From assembly GCA_024228115.1 (NCBI GenBank), contig JAAETT010000062.1, positions 1 to 45,404 on the forward strand: a stretch of 45,404 bases of DNA, written 5' to 3'. A model generated the notes under the pieces. It was not told where the DNA came from. It searched no databases and saw only the letters and a program-made list of their open reading frames with translations. The translations under genes were made by a program, and so were the position numbers. How positions within the stretch are numbered: position 1 is the stretch's first letter; every line of letters begins with the position of its first letter. Positions 9,900 to 16,253 of this stretch are shown here, piece after piece. The DNA comes from a bacterium (GTDB lineage: Bacteria > Myxococcota_A > UBA9160 > UBA6930).

Positions 9900-10058
9900 A
9901 TCCCCATTCGCCCGCCAATGCTGCAGACGCCTTTCGACTGTTTCCGCCGGTGGGAGGTGCGGCGGTGGTGAAACGGGGACGATCGAAGACTACCACCCAT
10001 CGCATCGACGTCATGGGCGCCTTGTGGGTTGGCGCCGGGAGCGGCAAGGTCTTCCGCG

Positions 10059-10511
10059 ATGCGTCTCTCCCTCCAGAGCCAATACGCGATCTGCGGGATG
10101 TTCGATCTCGCGTACCATGGGGAAGAGGGCCCGGTGCAGGTGCGCGTGATCGGTGAACGCCAGCGGATCCCGCGACGCTTTCTGGAACAGATCTTCCAGC
10201 GCCTCCGAAAGGCCGGGCTGGTGCGTGGCAAACGCGGGCCGGGTGGCGGCTACGTGTTGGCTCGAGACGCCGAGCAGGTGACGCTGCGAGATATCGTCGA
10301 GGCGGTGGAGGGCCCCCTGGGAGATGCCCTGGCGCCTGGTCCGCCGCCCAGAGATCGGGAAGTTCCGGAGCGTCCGACGTTTCTGTGGCCGGATCTGGCA
10401 GCTCGCATCCAGGGAGCACTCGAAAGCGTGAGCTTGGAAGGCCTGTGTCGGCAGGCTGCCGAGGCTGGCGTCGAGCGGGCCAGCGCAGCGGGCCGTACCT
10501 GGCATATCTGA
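10059..10511 (+). CDS. Rrf2-family transcriptional regulator
   Basis: This is a winged-helix DNA-binding repressor of the Rrf2 family, about 150 aa. It opens with MRLSLQSQYAICGMFDLAYH and contains IPRRFLEQIFQRLRKAGLV (recognition helix) and GPGGGYVLARD (wing), which are family hallmarks. It lacks the three-cysteine cluster of IscR/NsrR; only single cysteines are visible, so it probably does not hold an Fe-S cluster and is closer in type to CymR or a redox-blind member. The ATG at 10059 was chosen because AAGGT lies 8 nt upstream and the family motif begins at once. It precedes the BNR-sulfur carrier-JAMM genes by 61 nt on the same strand and may control them; CymR regulates cysteine metabolism in Bacillus, so the context fits, but this is inference. 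Confidence 0.9.
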   Translation: MRLSLQSQYAICGMFDLAYHGEEGPVQVRVIGERQRIPRRFLEQIFQRLRKAGLVRGKRGPGGGYVLARDAEQVTLRDIVEAVEGPLGDALAPGPPPRDREVPERPTFLWPDLAARIQGALESVSLEGLCRQAAEAGVERASAAGRTWHI

Positions 10512-10572
10512 GCCAGCGCGCTCCGCCTGAATTCCCTGGCTCCGAACCCTCGAGGCTGCGTATCCTGGCGCC

Positions 10573-11832
10573 ATGAGGTTTCCAATGGCGAACCCCGATG
10601 GTGCTCCTGCTTCCGGCAGCGCGGCGAAGGATGCGAATGCTCCTCCCCGAGAGGCGTCGCCGCTCGACCCGGGCCGCCACGCCGAGATCCACCATCGGCC
10701 TGGCCTCGCGCTCCTGGTTGGGACGAGGAAGGGCGCCTGGATCCTTCGGCCGGACGCGGCCCGCGAGGTATGGACGACCGAGGGGCCGGTGTTCCTGGGG
10801 AACGTGGCACATCACTTCTGCCTCGACCCGCGTGACGGTCGAACCCTGCTGATCGCCGCGAGGGCAGGGCATCTGGGGCCGACCGTGTTCCGGTCCACCG
10901 ATGGGGGCAGGAACTGGCAAGAGGCTACGCGTCCGCCGGCCTTTCCCAAGCCCTCGCCGGCCGGGCGCCAACGGGCCGTGGAACAGGTGTTCTGGCTGAC
11001 GCCCGGCCACGCGGATCAGCCTGGGGTCTGGTACGCAGGGACCGCGCCGGAAGGGCTCTTCCGCAGTGAGGACGGGGGCCTGACCTGGGATGGTGTGGAT
11101 GGCTGGAACGACCATGCGAGCTGGGACCTCTGGGCTGAGCCGGACGATGCGGAACAATCGACGCCGGACGGTTCGCCCCTCCACTCGGTGAGGATCGATC
11201 CACGCGATCCCTCCCATCTGTATCTCTCGACCTCGAGCGGGGGGGTGTTCGAGAGCCTTCGAGCGGGTGCGGACTGGCGGCCGCTGAATGGCGGTGTGGA
11301 AGCGAATTTCTTGCCGGATCCGTTCCCCGAGACCGGCCAGGATACCCACCACCTGGCCATGCATCCCAAGGCGCCGGACGTCCTCTACCAGCAGAACCAT
11401 TGCGGTATCTACCGCCTCGAGCGGCCCGGCAAACAGTGGACACGGATCGGTGACAACATGCCGAAGGACGTGGGGGACATCGGCTTCCCGATTTCCCTGC
11501 ATCCCCGGGATCCGGATACGGCCTGGGTGTTTCCGATGGACGGTACGGACGTCTGGCCACGCACGAGCCCGGCTGGCCGGCCGGCGGTCTATCGCACCCG
11601 CGACGCTGGCAAGAGCTGGGAGCGCCAGGATGCGGGTCTTCCGGCGCAGCAGGCCTGGCTCACGGTGAAGCGTCAATCGATGGCGGTGGATGAACGCGAT
11701 CCGGTTGGCGTGTACTTCGGCACCACCAATGGAGACGTCTGGGCAAGCGCGGACGAGGGCGCCAGCTGGCAATGCATCGCTCCCCACCTGCCCCATGTGT
11801 ACTCCATCGAGGCCGTGGAGTTCGTCGCGTGA
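10573..11832 (+). CDS. BNR/sialidase-like beta-propeller protein
   Basis: This is a propeller protein of the BNR/exo-alpha-sialidase-like (VPS10-like) superfamily, 419 aa. Four Asp-box motifs can be read: STDGGRNWQ, SEDGGLTWDG, TRDAGKSWER and SADEGASWQC. A GTRKGAWIL motif stands near the start, as in family members annotated 'glycosyl hydrolase' in many genomes. There is no signal peptide, so it is probably cytoplasmic; true sialidase activity is doubtful. An ATG 12 nt further in (10585) is an alternative start; neither has a strong ribosome binding site. Its stop codon overlaps the GTG of the sulfur carrier gene (GTGA), so the two are translationally coupled. This pairing with a MoaD/ThiS-like gene occurs in other bacteria to my knowledge, but its meaning is unknown. 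Confidence 0.85.
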   Translation: MRFPMANPDGAPASGSAAKDANAPPREASPLDPGRHAEIHHRPGLALLVGTRKGAWILRPDAAREVWTTEGPVFLGNVAHHFCLDPRDGRTLLIAARAGHLGPTVFRSTDGGRNWQEATRPPAFPKPSPAGRQRAVEQVFWLTPGHADQPGVWYAGTAPEGLFRSEDGGLTWDGVDGWNDHASWDLWAEPDDAEQSTPDGSPLHSVRIDPRDPSHLYLSTSSGGVFESLRAGADWRPLNGGVEANFLPDPFPETGQDTHHLAMHPKAPDVLYQQNHCGIYRLERPGKQWTRIGDNMPKDVGDIGFPISLHPRDPDTAWVFPMDGTDVWPRTSPAGRPAVYRTRDAGKSWERQDAGLPAQQAWLTVKRQSMAVDERDPVGVYFGTTNGDVWASADEGASWQCIAPHLPHVYSIEAVEFVA

Positions 11833-12086
11833 AGGTGTCGATTCCCGAGCCGCTGCGAGGCTACACCGGCGCCGGGGAGGTCGATGCGGAGGGCGCTTCC
11901 GTCGATGAGCTGCTTCGCGATCTCGACCGGCTCTACCCGGGCCTTCGTTTCCGCATGGTGGATGAGCGGGATCGTCTCCGGCCCCACTTGCGGGTGTTCA
12001 TCAATCGAGAGCGCGCACGCGGCCTGCAGGAGCCCCTCCGCGAGGGGGACCAGGTGCAGATCCTCCAGGCGCTGAGCGGTGGGTAG
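11829..12086 (+). CDS. MoaD/ThiS-like ubiquitin-fold sulfur carrier protein
   Basis: This is an 85-residue protein of the MoaD/ThiS/CysO fold. It begins KVSIPEPLRGYTG, contains VFINRE and LREGDQVQIL, the last two strands of the fold, and ends exactly in ALSGG, the exposed Gly-Gly that is adenylated and thiocarboxylated in this family. The GTG start overlaps the stop of the BNR gene. The next gene encodes a JAMM protease. That neighbourhood matches the CysO-Mec+ pair of actinobacteria, where the carrier delivers sulfide for cysteine synthesis and Mec+ cleaves the new cysteine from the carrier. Molybdopterin or thiamine synthesis is less likely because no moa or thi genes are near. No activating E1-like enzyme (MoeB/ThiF) and no cysteine synthase is in the window. 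Confidence 0.9.
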   Translation: MKVSIPEPLRGYTGAGEVDAEGASVDELLRDLDRLYPGLRFRMVDERDRLRPHLRVFINRERARGLQEPLREGDQVQILQALSGG

Positions 12087-12201
12087 TGGGTTGTCTGCCC
12101 CCAGGGGACAGTGCCCCGACCAGCGGGACGGGTGAAATCCCCGAGGGTGTTCCGTAGAATGCCGCGGTCCCACGCAGGGGCCGAGTTGCCCAGGACGGGC
12201 C

Positions 12202-12265
12202 GTGAGCGGACGCATCGACGTAGATCGGTCTCTGTGAGCGGACGCATCGACGTAGAACGGTCGCT
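12202..12265 (+). repeat. 32-bp tandem duplication at the start of the JAMM gene
   Basis: Two adjacent 32-bp units (12202-12233 and 12234-12265) differ at only two positions. Each starts with GTGAGCGGACGCATCGACG. The second GTG is the start of the JAMM gene. Because 32 is not a multiple of three, the first copy opens a different frame of 11 codons that ends in a TGA overlapping the true GTG. Confidence 0.85.
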
Positions 12266-12737
12266 GCCTCCGGTGGCAGTGCCCGCGATCGTGTGGAACG
12301 AGCTTCGGGGCCATGCCCTGGAGACGGTTCCTGAGGAGTGCTGCGGGCTCCTCCTGGGCAAGGAAGCCGGTCGCTACGAGAGGGTGGTCCGCTGTCGCAA
12401 CGAAATGACGCGGTTGCACCAGGAAGACCCGCAGTCCCATCCGCTCGACGGACGGGAGGCGTTTCACATGAACGAGATGGACTACGTGCGGATCCAGCAA
12501 CAGGCCAAAGAGGAACGGGTTCAGGTGACCGCGGTCTACCACTCCCACGTAGGCGCTGGCGCGTACTTCTCCGAGATGGATCAAGCCTATGCCCTCGAAC
12601 CGTTGTTTCCGTTCCCCGATGCAGATCATCTGGTGATCTCCGTGGTAGAACGCCGAGTCCGAGACATCGCCATCTTTCGCTATGAGCGAGCGACAGGTGG
12701 TTTCGAAGGACGCGTGCTCAGCACGGAGGCCCCGTGA
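12234..12737 (+). CDS. JAMM/MPN+ metalloprotease (Mec+/Mov34-like)
   Basis: This is a zinc protease of the JAB1/MPN/Mov34 family, 167 aa. The complete JAMM signature is present: the glutamate in VPEECCGLLLG and HSHVGAGAYFSEMD (H-x-H-x7-S-x2-D). Bacterial members of this short type cut after the Gly-Gly of a sulfur carrier; Mec+ of Mycobacterium releases cysteine from CysO. The substrate is presumably the carrier encoded 148 nt upstream. I chose the GTG at 12234, after which the sequence reads SGRIDVERSLPPV; the open frame extends upstream to 12111 but with unnatural composition. A 32-bp tandem duplication places a second, out-of-frame GTG before it. Its stop overlaps the GTG of the lipoprotein gene. 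Confidence 0.9.
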   Translation: MSGRIDVERSLPPVAVPAIVWNELRGHALETVPEECCGLLLGKEAGRYERVVRCRNEMTRLHQEDPQSHPLDGREAFHMNEMDYVRIQQQAKEERVQVTAVYHSHVGAGAYFSEMDQAYALEPLFPFPDADHLVISVVERRVRDIAIFRYERATGGFEGRVLSTEAP

Positions 12738-13762
12738 AGCGGCTGATCGGATTGTTGCTGGTAGCCCATGCCCTGGGTTGCGCTGGCCCGCGGTACAGCT
12801 TCGAGGATCTTCCGGAGGCGCCGATCGCCCTCGTCTACCGGAACATGACGGAGGCCGAGCAGGCCGCCGACGCGTTCTACAAGATGGAGGAGAAACTTCG
12901 GACCGCGCGAACCGGCATTCGGCCCCGGAAACGCCAGAACACGCTGAACGTCGATGAGATGGCCCAGGCCTTCGGCGTCTACGGATCCGGTGAGACGCGC
13001 GCGGCTTCTTCCCTTGGACATCTGGCGCTGCTCGATCCGAGGACGGGGGTGGTCTCGATCGCCGATTGGGCGCCCCGCGGCTCCCGCCCGCTGGCATGGT
13101 CCGCCGATCACCAACGCCTCCTTTATCTCGGTCTCCGCCGGGGAATGCCGCATATCTACGAGCGCGATTTTCGCACCGGGGACATCACTCCGATCACCCA
13201 TACCCGTCGCCGTCACCTCGACGCTTGCTACTGCGGTGAGGACGCCATCGTCTTCGCGGCCTTCCTCCCATCAGGCGGAAGCAGGCTCTACCGTCGCAAG
13301 GCCGGTGGGGGGAAGGCGGAGGCGATCACGGACGGCCCCTCCGATTTCGCTCCCTCCTGCTCACCCGATGGCAGCGCGGTGTACTGGGCTTCGGTCGAGG
13401 ATAGGGCCTCGGGGCCGATCTCCATGCTCGACTTGACGGATCCCGACGGCCAGGCCCGGGTGCTGACGCGCGGCCGCCATCCGAGTGTGACTCCCGACGG
13501 CAAATGGATCGTCTACAGCGCAAAGACCCGCTCGGGCTGGAAGTTGTGGCGTATGCGCACCGATGGAACGGGGCGTCACCCGCTCGGCCGAGGCGCGTCC
13601 TGGGAGCATCAGCCCACGGCATCGACCGAAGGTGGCTATGCCGTCTTCGTGACCACGCCCTCGGACAAGGAAGTCCACTTCTCGGTGTGGGTCCGGCCCT
13701 TCGATGGCGACGATGACCGGCCGATGGCCATCGACGGTGAGGGCCTTTTTCCGGTCTGGTAG
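12734..13762 (+). CDS. TolB-like beta-propeller lipoprotein
   Basis: This is a predicted lipoprotein: the start MKRLIGLLLVAHALGC has a lipobox ending at Cys16, followed by Gly, so outer-membrane anchoring is possible. The body (342 aa) has WD40-like/PD40 repeats as in TolB and protease propellers: WSADHQRLLYL, CSPDGSAVYWAS and VTPDGKWIVYSA. It starts with a GTG that overlaps the JAMM stop codon (GTGA), and so belongs to the same transcript. A propeller in the envelope as the last gene of an operon with cytoplasmic sulfur-carrier genes is unexpected. The function is unknown. Confidence 0.85.
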   Translation: MKRLIGLLLVAHALGCAGPRYSFEDLPEAPIALVYRNMTEAEQAADAFYKMEEKLRTARTGIRPRKRQNTLNVDEMAQAFGVYGSGETRAASSLGHLALLDPRTGVVSIADWAPRGSRPLAWSADHQRLLYLGLRRGMPHIYERDFRTGDITPITHTRRRHLDACYCGEDAIVFAAFLPSGGSRLYRRKAGGGKAEAITDGPSDFAPSCSPDGSAVYWASVEDRASGPISMLDLTDPDGQARVLTRGRHPSVTPDGKWIVYSAKTRSGWKLWRMRTDGTGRHPLGRGASWEHQPTASTEGGYAVFVTTPSDKEVHFSVWVRPFDGDDDRPMAIDGEGLFPVW

Positions 13763-13791
13763 CTGCTCGTTACCGCCGCCCATCTTTTTCC

Positions 13792-13803
13792 GGCCGATCG
13801 GCC
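13792..13803. promoter_or_regulatory. 12-bp perfect palindrome upstream of sat
   Basis: GGCCGATCGGCC lies 30 nt before the sat start, after a T-rich run (CTTTTTCC). It is a candidate operator, for instance for a dimeric regulator; no experiment or comparison supports it, and GC-rich palindromes of this length occur by chance. Confidence 0.25.
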
Positions 13804-13833
13804 AACGTTTCTTCATCACGATCAGGAGTTCTC

Positions 13834-15099
13834 ATGTCCCGCACGCCTCAAGGCGATCTCGTTCCCGTTCACGGAGGCCTCGACGCACCCGTCGACTGCA
13901 CCATTCCCCTTTCCGAGCGCAAGGCGTTCCTGGCCGAGGCTTCTGGTCTGCCTTCCGTGCGGGTGAGCCGCGCGGATCTTTCGACCCTGTATCGAATCGG
14001 GGATGGCGCGCTCTCGCCGCTCGAAGGCCCGATGGACGAGGAGACCTGGAATCGGGTGCTCGATGAGCGGGTCATTCTCAGTGGTGGAAAGTCCTATGTC
14101 TGGACGATCCCCCTGGCGCTGCCCGTCACCGATGAAGAAGCCCAGGCTGCAGCCGGCGCATCGGCCGTCGCGGTGCAGACCGAGGAAGGGGACACCATCG
14201 CGATCGTCGACGGGCCGAGCTGCTACGCATTCGACAAGGATCGCTATGTCAAGCAGGTCTACCGTACGGAACGCTTCGACCATCCCGGCGGACGCATGGT
14301 CGAGAGCGACCCGCGCACGCAGCTTCTGGGCGGAAGCCTGCGGGTTCTGCCCCAGCCCATCAATCGGCAGTACGGCCAGTTCATGCTCTCCCCGGTCCGG
14401 GTACGAGCCTTGATCCGGGATCGGAAATGGGAGCGGGCGCTGGCATTCCAGACGCGCAATCCCCTGCATCGGGCCCATGAGTACGCCCTCGTCGCCGGCG
14501 CGGAGCGCCTGACCCGCGACGGGAGCTACACGGGCGTCGTGCTGAACCCGTTGGTCGGAGAGCTGAAAGGAGACGACGTCCCTGCATCCATGCGCATGGA
14601 GTGCTACCGGGAGCTTCGCAACAAGAGTCTGCTCGGCGAAGGGGACAAGGACGAGGCGCTCTGGGCCGAGCGGGGGTACGACCTGCCCGAGGTCTTCGAG
14701 CTGATCGGACTCGATATCAAGATGTTCTACGGTGGGCCGAGCGAGGCCGTCATGCACGCCATCTACCGGCAGAACTACGGCTTCAGCGATCTCGTCGTGG
14801 GCCGCAAGCACGCGGATGCGCCCTTCGAAGACGGCGAAGCCATCTGGGGCGACTTCGATGCCCACGAGATCTTCGACGATCTCCCGGGAGAGCTCCACCT
14901 CACACCGTGCAAGATCGGCTTTGCGGCCTTCTATGAGTCGCTGGGACGGGTCGACCTGATGGAGCGACATCCTGACGAGAAGCCCTACGGCATCTCGGGA
15001 ACGAAGGTCCGTGATCAGCTTCGCGCTGGGGAACATCCGGATCCGCGCATTCTTCGCCCCGAGATCGCGGATATCCTGATCGAAGCGTACAAGGCCTGA
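13834..15099 (+). CDS. sat: Sulfate adenylyltransferase (ATP sulfurylase)
   Basis: The enzyme makes adenosine 5'-phosphosulfate and pyrophosphate from ATP and sulfate, the first step of sulfate activation. The homo-oligomeric Sat family is shown by FQTRNPLHRAHEYAL (QxRNPxHxxH nucleotide-binding motif), the N-terminal PUA-like region with LSPLEGPMD, MFYGGPSEA, and the C-terminal ISGTKVRDQL. The length of 421 aa is usual for a Sat without fused APS kinase. The ATG has AGGAG 6 nt upstream. It follows the lipoprotein gene by 71 nt and precedes ald. In this setting it likely supplies assimilatory sulfur to the carrier/JAMM module; a role in dissimilatory metabolism has no support, since no apr or dsr genes are present. 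Confidence 0.95.
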   Translation: MSRTPQGDLVPVHGGLDAPVDCTIPLSERKAFLAEASGLPSVRVSRADLSTLYRIGDGALSPLEGPMDEETWNRVLDERVILSGGKSYVWTIPLALPVTDEEAQAAAGASAVAVQTEEGDTIAIVDGPSCYAFDKDRYVKQVYRTERFDHPGGRMVESDPRTQLLGGSLRVLPQPINRQYGQFMLSPVRVRALIRDRKWERALAFQTRNPLHRAHEYALVAGAERLTRDGSYTGVVLNPLVGELKGDDVPASMRMECYRELRNKSLLGEGDKDEALWAERGYDLPEVFELIGLDIKMFYGGPSEAVMHAIYRQNYGFSDLVVGRKHADAPFEDGEAIWGDFDAHEIFDDLPGELHLTPCKIGFAAFYESLGRVDLMERHPDEKPYGISGTKVRDQLRAGEHPDPRILRPEIADILIEAYKA

Positions 15100-15140: not shown

Positions 15141-16253
15141 ATGCACATCGGCATTTCCAGGGAGACGAAGGATCAGGAGTTCCGCGTCGGAATGACGCCG
15201 GATGGCGTGCGCATGTTGACCGACCGCGGTCATCGATTGTCGGTGGAAATCGGGGCCGGGCAGGGCAGCGGATTCCCCGATGACGACTATCAACAGGCCG
15301 GCGCGCGCCTCGTCTCCACCGAAGAGGTGTGGAGCGAGCCGGCGATGATCGTCAAGGTCAAGGAGCCGAATCCCGAGGAAGTCGCCCGCCTCCACGAGGG
15401 CCAGGTGTTGTTCACCTACCTGCACCTTGCGGCTGCACCCGAGGTGACGCAGGCCCTGCTCGAAGCCCAGGTGATCGGAATCGCCTACGAAACGATTCGC
15501 CATGCGGACGGTACGTTTCCGGTGCTTGCACCGATGAGCGAAGTGGCGGGGCGCCTGGCCGCGCAAATCGGCGTGACGCTCCTGCAGAAGAACCGCGGCG
15601 GCAAGGGGCTTCTGGTCGGAGGTGTGCCGGGCGTGCCGCGGGGTGCGGTGACGGTCATCGGTGGGGGAATCGTCGGCATCAACGCCGTGCGCATCGCCCA
15701 CGCCCTCGGGGCTGACGTGACGGTTCTCGACGTAGATCTGCGACGCCTGGCGTACGTCTACGACATCTTCCGCGGCGAACTGAACACGCTCTTCTCGAAT
15801 CCGGCCAATATCGAGCGAGCGGTCGCCGAGAGCGATCTGGTCATTGGTGCGGTCTACATCCACGGCAGGCGCGCACCCACCCTCGTGACCGAGGAAATGG
15901 TCCAAAGCATGGAAGCCGGTTCGGTGGTGGTCGATGTGGCGGTCGACCAGGGTGGCTGCATCGAGACCATCCACCCGACGACGCACTCGGATCCCATCTA
16001 CTCGCTCCATGACGTGATCCACTACGGCGTGGCGAACATGCCTGGTGCCGTGCCGCGCACTTCGACTTTCGCGCTCACGAATACGACCTTCCCGTACATC
16101 GAACGAATTGCTGCAGAGGGAGTCGAAGCTGCGGTGGGCGCCGACCCTGCGCTCGAGCAGGGAGCCAACTTGTGGCGCGGCGAAATCGTCTGCCAGGGAG
16201 TCGCCGATTCCCTCGGGCTTCCGTATCGGAAGCTCTCGGAGCTGCTTGGTTGA
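15141..16253 (+). CDS. ald: Alanine dehydrogenase
   Basis: Ald interconverts L-alanine and pyruvate plus ammonia with NAD. The sequence begins [20 protein letters not shown], as is typical. The pyruvate-binding lysine and catalytic histidine stand in IVKVKEP (near residue 74) and YLHLAAAPE (near 96). The Rossmann motif is [15 protein letters not shown], and the end has [17 protein letters not shown] and [15 protein letters not shown]. The length of 370 aa is standard. It starts at ATG 15141, 41 nt after sat, with GGAGGCGAGGG shortly upstream, so co-transcription with sat is possible. Downstream it meets the RAYT-associated repeat. Confidence 0.95.

Follow-up and report, generated by a model that had tools for sequence, protein, structure and literature searches.

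Genes at the locus and an inserted cassette

The window analysed here is a 45,404-nucleotide contig from a Myxococcota genome of 6.4 Mb (97% complete, 700 contigs), in which six consecutive genes encode an Rrf2-family regulator, an Asp-box (BNR) beta-propeller, a ubiquitin-like carrier, a JAMM metalloprotease, a second, lipoprotein beta-propeller, and an ATP sulfurylase (Sat). An earlier reading of this sequence (hereafter the original prediction) had proposed that all six form one sulfur/cysteine module, in which carrier and JAMM protein correspond to CysO/Mec+ and both propellers may be carrier partners. Its description of the genes was accurate: Pfam matches place all six where predicted, the carrier translation closes with LSGG and a stop codon, both GTGA overlaps are real (11829–11832 between propeller and carrier, 12734–12737 between JAMM protein and lipoprotein), and the JAMM zinc site is complete, with an E ... 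HxHx7Sx2D signature (PEECCG, then H103-S-H105-x7-S113-x2-D116) whose PEECCG motif and H103, H105, S113 and D116 are invariant in three homologs. The grouping of the genes proved different, in that the propeller and carrier genes form a cassette inserted into an older cluster, and the same two genes recur as a pair in at least seven bacterial phyla.

The insertion is evident from empty sites in the same genus. In genomes G1188 and G1190, about 1.6 kb (10514–12126) is missing between rrf2 and the element upstream of the JAMM gene, and blastn matched window positions 10009–10513 and 12127–12795 to stretches lying 48 nt apart in G1190. Neither propeller nor carrier lies upstream of the JAMM gene on the short contig of a third congener (G1191), and the pair occupies this slot in two of five genus members. 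Elsewhere in the family, four genomes have the pair and the JAMM gene on separate contigs. This strain thus carries the propeller–carrier cassette as an insertion separating rrf2 from the JAMM operon, and the cassette appears to be an independent, mobile two-gene system. The single sulfur/cysteine module is ruled out by these same-genus empty sites and by the unlinked copies within the family.

The 147-nt gap between carrier and JAMM genes holds a promoter-like element of 30–32 bp, kept in the alignment of five genus members, whether or not they carry the pair (Table 1). Because this conserved element separates the carrier from the JAMM gene, the JAMM cluster keeps its own likely promoter. The element at 12130–12161 may be a promoter or an Rrf2 operator.

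Table 1. Features of the window between positions 10059 and 16253
Feature	Position	Strand	Evidence
Rrf2-family regulator	10059..10511	+	Pfam PF02082, E 8e-30; upstream of JAMM in many relatives
Inserted cassette (propeller + carrier)	10514..12126	+	blastn against same-genus G1188 and G1190
Asp-box (BNR) 7-bladed beta-propeller, 419 aa	10573..11832	+	3b7f ortholog, Pfam BNR
ThiS/MoaD-fold ubiquitin-like carrier, 85 aa	11829..12086	+	PF02597, E 2.5e-10; C-terminus Ser-Gly-Gly
Promoter-like element GGTGAAATCCCCGAGGGTGTTCCGTAGAATGC, GTGAAA-17-TAGAAT, upstream of JAMM	12130..12161	+	Five-locus genus alignment, promoter scan
JAMM/MPN+ metalloprotease (Prok-JAB)	12234..12737	+	PF14464, E 1.3e-18
PD40/TolB-like beta-propeller lipoprotein, lipobox-like N-terminus	12734..13762	+	PF07676, E 2.8e-9
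Divergent ATP sulfurylase (Sat)	13834..15099	+	PF01747, E 8e-54
Alanine dehydrogenase, last gene of the conserved cluster	15141..16253	+	Same place in most longer JAMM regions and in L302

The genes flanking the cassette have a history of their own. With the JAMM protein as bait, homologs were detected in 73 of 80 genomes of the same order, and among the 30 best loci within the order, the PD40 lipoprotein and ATP sulfurylase genes lay downstream of JAMM in 27 and 28 cases, respectively, and an Rrf2 gene at most 1.5 kb upstream in 15. In longer regions, a divergent helicase gene precedes Rrf2, JAMM, lipoprotein and Sat, usually with alanine dehydrogenase at the end. The four genes from Rrf2 to Sat hence form an old cluster conserved across the order. 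This part of the predicted sulfur set stands, and the propeller–carrier pair is foreign to it; likewise, the lipoprotein is a regular neighbour of JAMM and Sat rather than a carrier partner, which leaves the BNR protein as the one propeller whose proposed association with the carrier is borne out by a neighbourhood kept across phyla.

No carrier was found at 25 of the 30 JAMM loci, and propeller and carrier occurred together at two, namely in this genome and its congener G1189. Since the pair was inserted, and since JAMM accompanies it in only these two genomes, the carrier and JAMM protein are not an ancestral CysO/Mec+ pair, contrary to the original prediction; the carrier also groups with propeller-linked carriers. 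A carrier next to a JAMM gene in one genome can evidently be accidental, which calls for caution. In three genomes of family f6 (L309, L311 and L315), a different, CysO-like Gly-Gly carrier lies directly before JAMM, and the rrf2–JAMM slot has been filled by a carrier in two lineages. The f6 regions L341, L342 and L343 show such a CysO-like Gly-Gly carrier in this slot, and a small XRE-type regulator lies on the opposite strand at the carrier-filled slot in L342 and L112.

A propeller–carrier pair in seven phyla

We searched sampled genomes of four phyla with a profile of the propeller, which was present in 45 of 189 genomes of the home phylum, 28 of 398 Pseudomonadota, 121 of 301 Chloroflexota, and 86 of 247 Acidobacteriota. 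After leaving out 7 unrelated multi-propeller proteins and 4 loci cut by contig ends, 156 of the 167 loci scoring above 250 bits were assessable, and a ThiS-type carrier gene was adjacent on the same strand in 139 of these (89%). As a few loci represent the same place fetched twice, the distinct carriers number 137, of which 123 end exactly in Gly-Gly and nearly all others extend past it by one residue to a few dozen. The propeller gene came first in 116 cases and the carrier gene in 23, with a 4-nt overlap in 54. By simple arithmetic, a 6.4-Mb genome with about eight carriers should have one within 500 bp of the propeller by chance at well below 1% of loci. The pair was found in Myxococcota, Pseudomonadota, Planctomycetota, Acidobacteriota, Chloroflexota, Bacillota, and Vulcanimicrobiota, and also in plasmid records (Pseudomonas aeruginosa, Mitsuaria, and Burkholderia), where it is annotated as "MoaD/ThiS family protein" next to "exo-alpha-sialidase" or a hypothetical protein. 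One of the species with the pair is Cupriavidus metallidurans CH34. Taken together, these data support a genuine partnership of the BNR protein and the Gly-Gly carrier in a widespread pair. The neighbourhood sought by the original prediction, with propeller, carrier and JAMM conserved across phyla, was therefore recovered for the first two genes, and the JAMM linkage recurs only in the congener G1189.

No third conserved gene was found in the neighbourhoods of the fetched loci, nor any natural propeller–carrier fusion among them, and the carrier had no match in phage records. Genes for ECF sigma factors, DUF6596, YCII, and VOC proteins were weakly associated with the pair and, together with DoxX, recurred near it at seven loci from several phyla. 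In one actinobacterial locus (L067, 7102–7380), a carrier-like protein without a Gly-Gly end adjoins the propeller, and in a Chloroflexota locus (L251, 2299–4879) MoeB, a CysO::CysM fusion and JAMM are encoded in a single opposite-strand operon about 3 kb from the pair.

The survey of Iyer, Burroughs and Aravind in 2006 (PMC1779556) described Gly-Gly carriers with JAB, E1, and ATP sulfurylase genes (types 4b–4e), and the words propeller, BNR, and sialidase are absent from its main text; unlike in its ThiS/MoaD–JAB–E1 neighbourhoods, neither JAB nor E1 is conserved with the propeller–carrier pair. Word searches covering part of the literature returned no paper tying BNR or sialidase-like propellers to MoaD/ThiS carriers.

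Properties of the two proteins

The propeller, identified as an Asp-box protein by its SxDxGxxW repeats and propeller fold, is a full-length ortholog of PDB 3b7f (E 6e-165). Its AlphaFold2 model had a predicted local distance difference test (pLDDT) score of 90.5 and a predicted template-modelling (pTM) score of 0.91, and Foldseek aligned it to 3b7f with 62% identity and a template-modelling (TM) score of 0.93. The function of 3b7f (Reut_B4987 of Ralstonia eutropha JMP134) is given as "Not known" in PMC2716378, and the papers found do not mention a carrier pairing. The next-best folds were GH74 xyloglucanases, DAIP, Ycf48, and sortilin. Unlike the tandem propellers of GH74, to which its TM scores were only 0.34–0.66, the window protein is a single propeller, and no signal peptide was evident in its sequence.

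Beyond the structural Gly/Trp and Asp-box residues, six polar residues (K53, H204, H259, Q274, H276, and R367) are kept in at least 134 of 136 carrier-linked and at least 23 of 24 unlinked propellers. In the strand order of the model, they fall where inner strands begin, or in or next to B–C turns. This suggests that they lie on the usual active-site (top) face, where they may constitute a candidate active site.

The carrier has the beta-grasp domain (PF02597) and C-terminal Gly-Gly of ThiS/MoaD carriers. Its nearest solved relatives are Mycobacterium tuberculosis CysO (3dwg_C) and 4n6e_B, which we take to be Amycolatopsis CysO, and its best NCBIfam matches are SAMP1/MoaD-arch models. Its assignment to the CysO/Mec+ system is not supported, as cysM is not adjacent, the JAMM linkage is secondary, and it groups with propeller-linked carriers rather than with unlinked CysO-like ones. 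On the carrier tree, where many forks are weak, the linked carriers for the most part separate from the unlinked ones, into a small number of clusters, with 6 changes of the linked/unlinked label versus 23.7 in shuffles. The Arg of an R-x-H motif is invariant in 138 of 138 linked carriers versus 13 of 25 unlinked ones. The carrier is most likely the cognate of the adjacent propeller. Identity with the MoaD of molybdenum cofactor synthesis was ruled out by a moaD–moaE pair on contig C425, in support of the original prediction on this point.

The propeller as a proposed carrier client, and alternatives

Within the same genome, ThiS adjoins ThiG and MoaD adjoins MoaE, and four more Gly-Gly carriers (contigs C415, C150, C326, and C167) lie next to an aldehyde ferredoxin oxidoreductase (AOR) in three cases and a molybdenum hydroxylase in one, these enzymes having been recognized by reading their sequences rather than by database search. 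Because carriers in this genome each adjoin what they serve or probably serve, the carrier of the pair most likely has the propeller as its client. The original prediction had noted that no E1-like enzyme or cysteine synthase was in view; elsewhere in the genome, genes of the PALP/cysteine-synthase fold are present, along with a single full-length E1-rhodanese of the MoeZ type (MoeB plus rhodanese, contig C4), which would most likely charge the carrier. Mycobacterial MoeZR is described as serving both molybdenum cofactor and cysteine biosynthesis (PMC3227635). In the scheme that we propose, this E1-rhodanese would adenylate the C-terminal glycine of the carrier and load sulfur as a thiocarboxylate, after which the charged carrier would dock on its dedicated propeller. 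Its flexible Gly-Gly tail could then enter the top-face pocket lined by the six conserved residues, where sulfur, or the carrier itself, would pass to a small substrate.

Such an independent carrier-and-client system, with E1 charging, docking, and transfer at the pocket, is the explanation that we favour, if only slightly over even chances. It builds on the pairing, co-divergence, invariant residues, fold, presence of an E1, and insertion, from which we infer charging, docking, and catalysis. Regarding co-divergence, carrier and propeller distances in a mirror-tree comparison were correlated at r = 0.94 overall (0.64, 0.78, and 0.96 within the three main clades), which no permutation reached, although the correlation was computed without correction for the species tree. 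Several other observations also weigh against the scheme. Propellers without an adjacent carrier, mainly alphaproteobacterial, still have the conserved polar set (all six residues in an alphaproteobacterial clade), and of 11 such alphaproteobacterial genomes checked, 10 lacked this type of carrier at E 1e-5. Because this clade keeps the site without the carrier, the propeller may also act alone or use another carrier. GH74 enzymes, DAIP, Ycf48, and sortilin bind glycans or peptides rather than transfer sulfur. Finally, a joined propeller–carrier chain (locus L044 read through its stop codon) gave no confident dock (pTM 0.76, pLDDT 69 in the last block), its alignment being poor, with carrier-only rows misplaced in the N-terminal half.

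The least unlikely of the alternatives, though still an improbable one, is that the inserted cassette has been recruited and now supplies a carrier to the JAMM/Sat cluster, as the CysO-like carrier may do in family f6. Two different Gly-Gly carriers in one slot in two lineages would fit this possibility; however, no other lineage examined pairs the cassette with JAMM, it sits here in just two of five genus members, and the slot may merely tolerate insertions. Protein conjugation, with the carrier as a ubiquitin-like modifier, the propeller as its dedicated target or E3-like receptor, Lys53 as acceptor, and JAMM as isopeptidase, ranks behind recruitment and seems to us doubtful. The near-invariance of Lys53 in linked propellers (134 of 136), the SAMP1-type matches of the carrier, the neighbouring JAMM gene, and JAMM–carrier–E1 operons in several of the same genomes are consistent with it, yet Lys53 is equally kept where no carrier is adjacent (23 of 24), a target lysine does not need three invariant His, a Gln, and an Arg, and JAMM is adjacent in only two genomes, with its own promoter-like element in between.

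We consider it less probable again that carrier, JAMM, and Sat act jointly in a CysO/Mec+-like cysteine-supply operon. The carrier's solved relatives are CysO proteins, Sat, JAMM, and Rrf2 are linked order-wide, and the f6 genomes place another Gly-Gly carrier directly before JAMM. Set against this are the 25 of 30 JAMM loci without a carrier, the same-genus empty site, and the clustering of the carrier with propeller-linked ones; moreover, its partner is a propeller instead of CysM, its R-x-H motif replaces an HRFVN-type stretch, JAMM adjoins by juxtaposition, and no cysteine synthase is adjacent, unlike in the true CysO–CysM–JAMM operon of L251. Very improbable, in our view, is an ordinary glycosidase or ligand-binding protein with a hitch-hiking carrier: the Asp-box fold, the glycosylhydrolase names in Pfam and NCBIfam, and the solo propellers would agree with this, whereas the carrier lying directly alongside at 89% of the assessable loci from different phyla, the absence of an evident secretion signal, and the difference from tandem GH74 propellers would not.

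The client scheme resembles ThiS–ThiG, MoaD–MoaE, and AOR-linked carriers, in which a carrier gene is coupled to its client gene and all three kinds of which occur in this genome, and differs from them in its client, an Asp-box beta-propeller for which no reaction is known. In its general form, as a widespread bacterial ubiquitin-like system with a beta-propeller enzyme as dedicated client, at whose invariant His/Lys/Arg site the carrier passes sulfur, or itself, to a substrate, we would give the scheme an even chance of being right. If so, ThiG, MoaE, CysM, and AOR would be joined by a new class of sulfur-carrier client, and such clients tend to lead to sulfur-containing cofactors and natural products. 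The propeller occurs in 7–40% of genomes sampled in four phyla, some of them from bacteria that can be grown in the laboratory, and, for all its solved structure and apparent active site, has no assigned function. The pairing thus provides a concrete hypothesis for the role of 3b7f-type "sialidases", and suggests that its automatic annotation as a glycosidase is mistaken.

Regarding the remaining genes of the window, the Rrf2 protein scored under both equivalog cut-offs (99 vs 207 bits for IscR and 77 vs 195 for CymR), leaving the predicted "CymR-type" label unproven, and the iron–sulfur cysteine triad is not present in it. The Sat protein is divergent, above the Pfam threshold and under the NCBIfam cut-offs. 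The 5' end of the JAMM gene (gtgagcggacgcatcgacgtaga) is present as a tandem duplicate, at about 12203 and at 12234.

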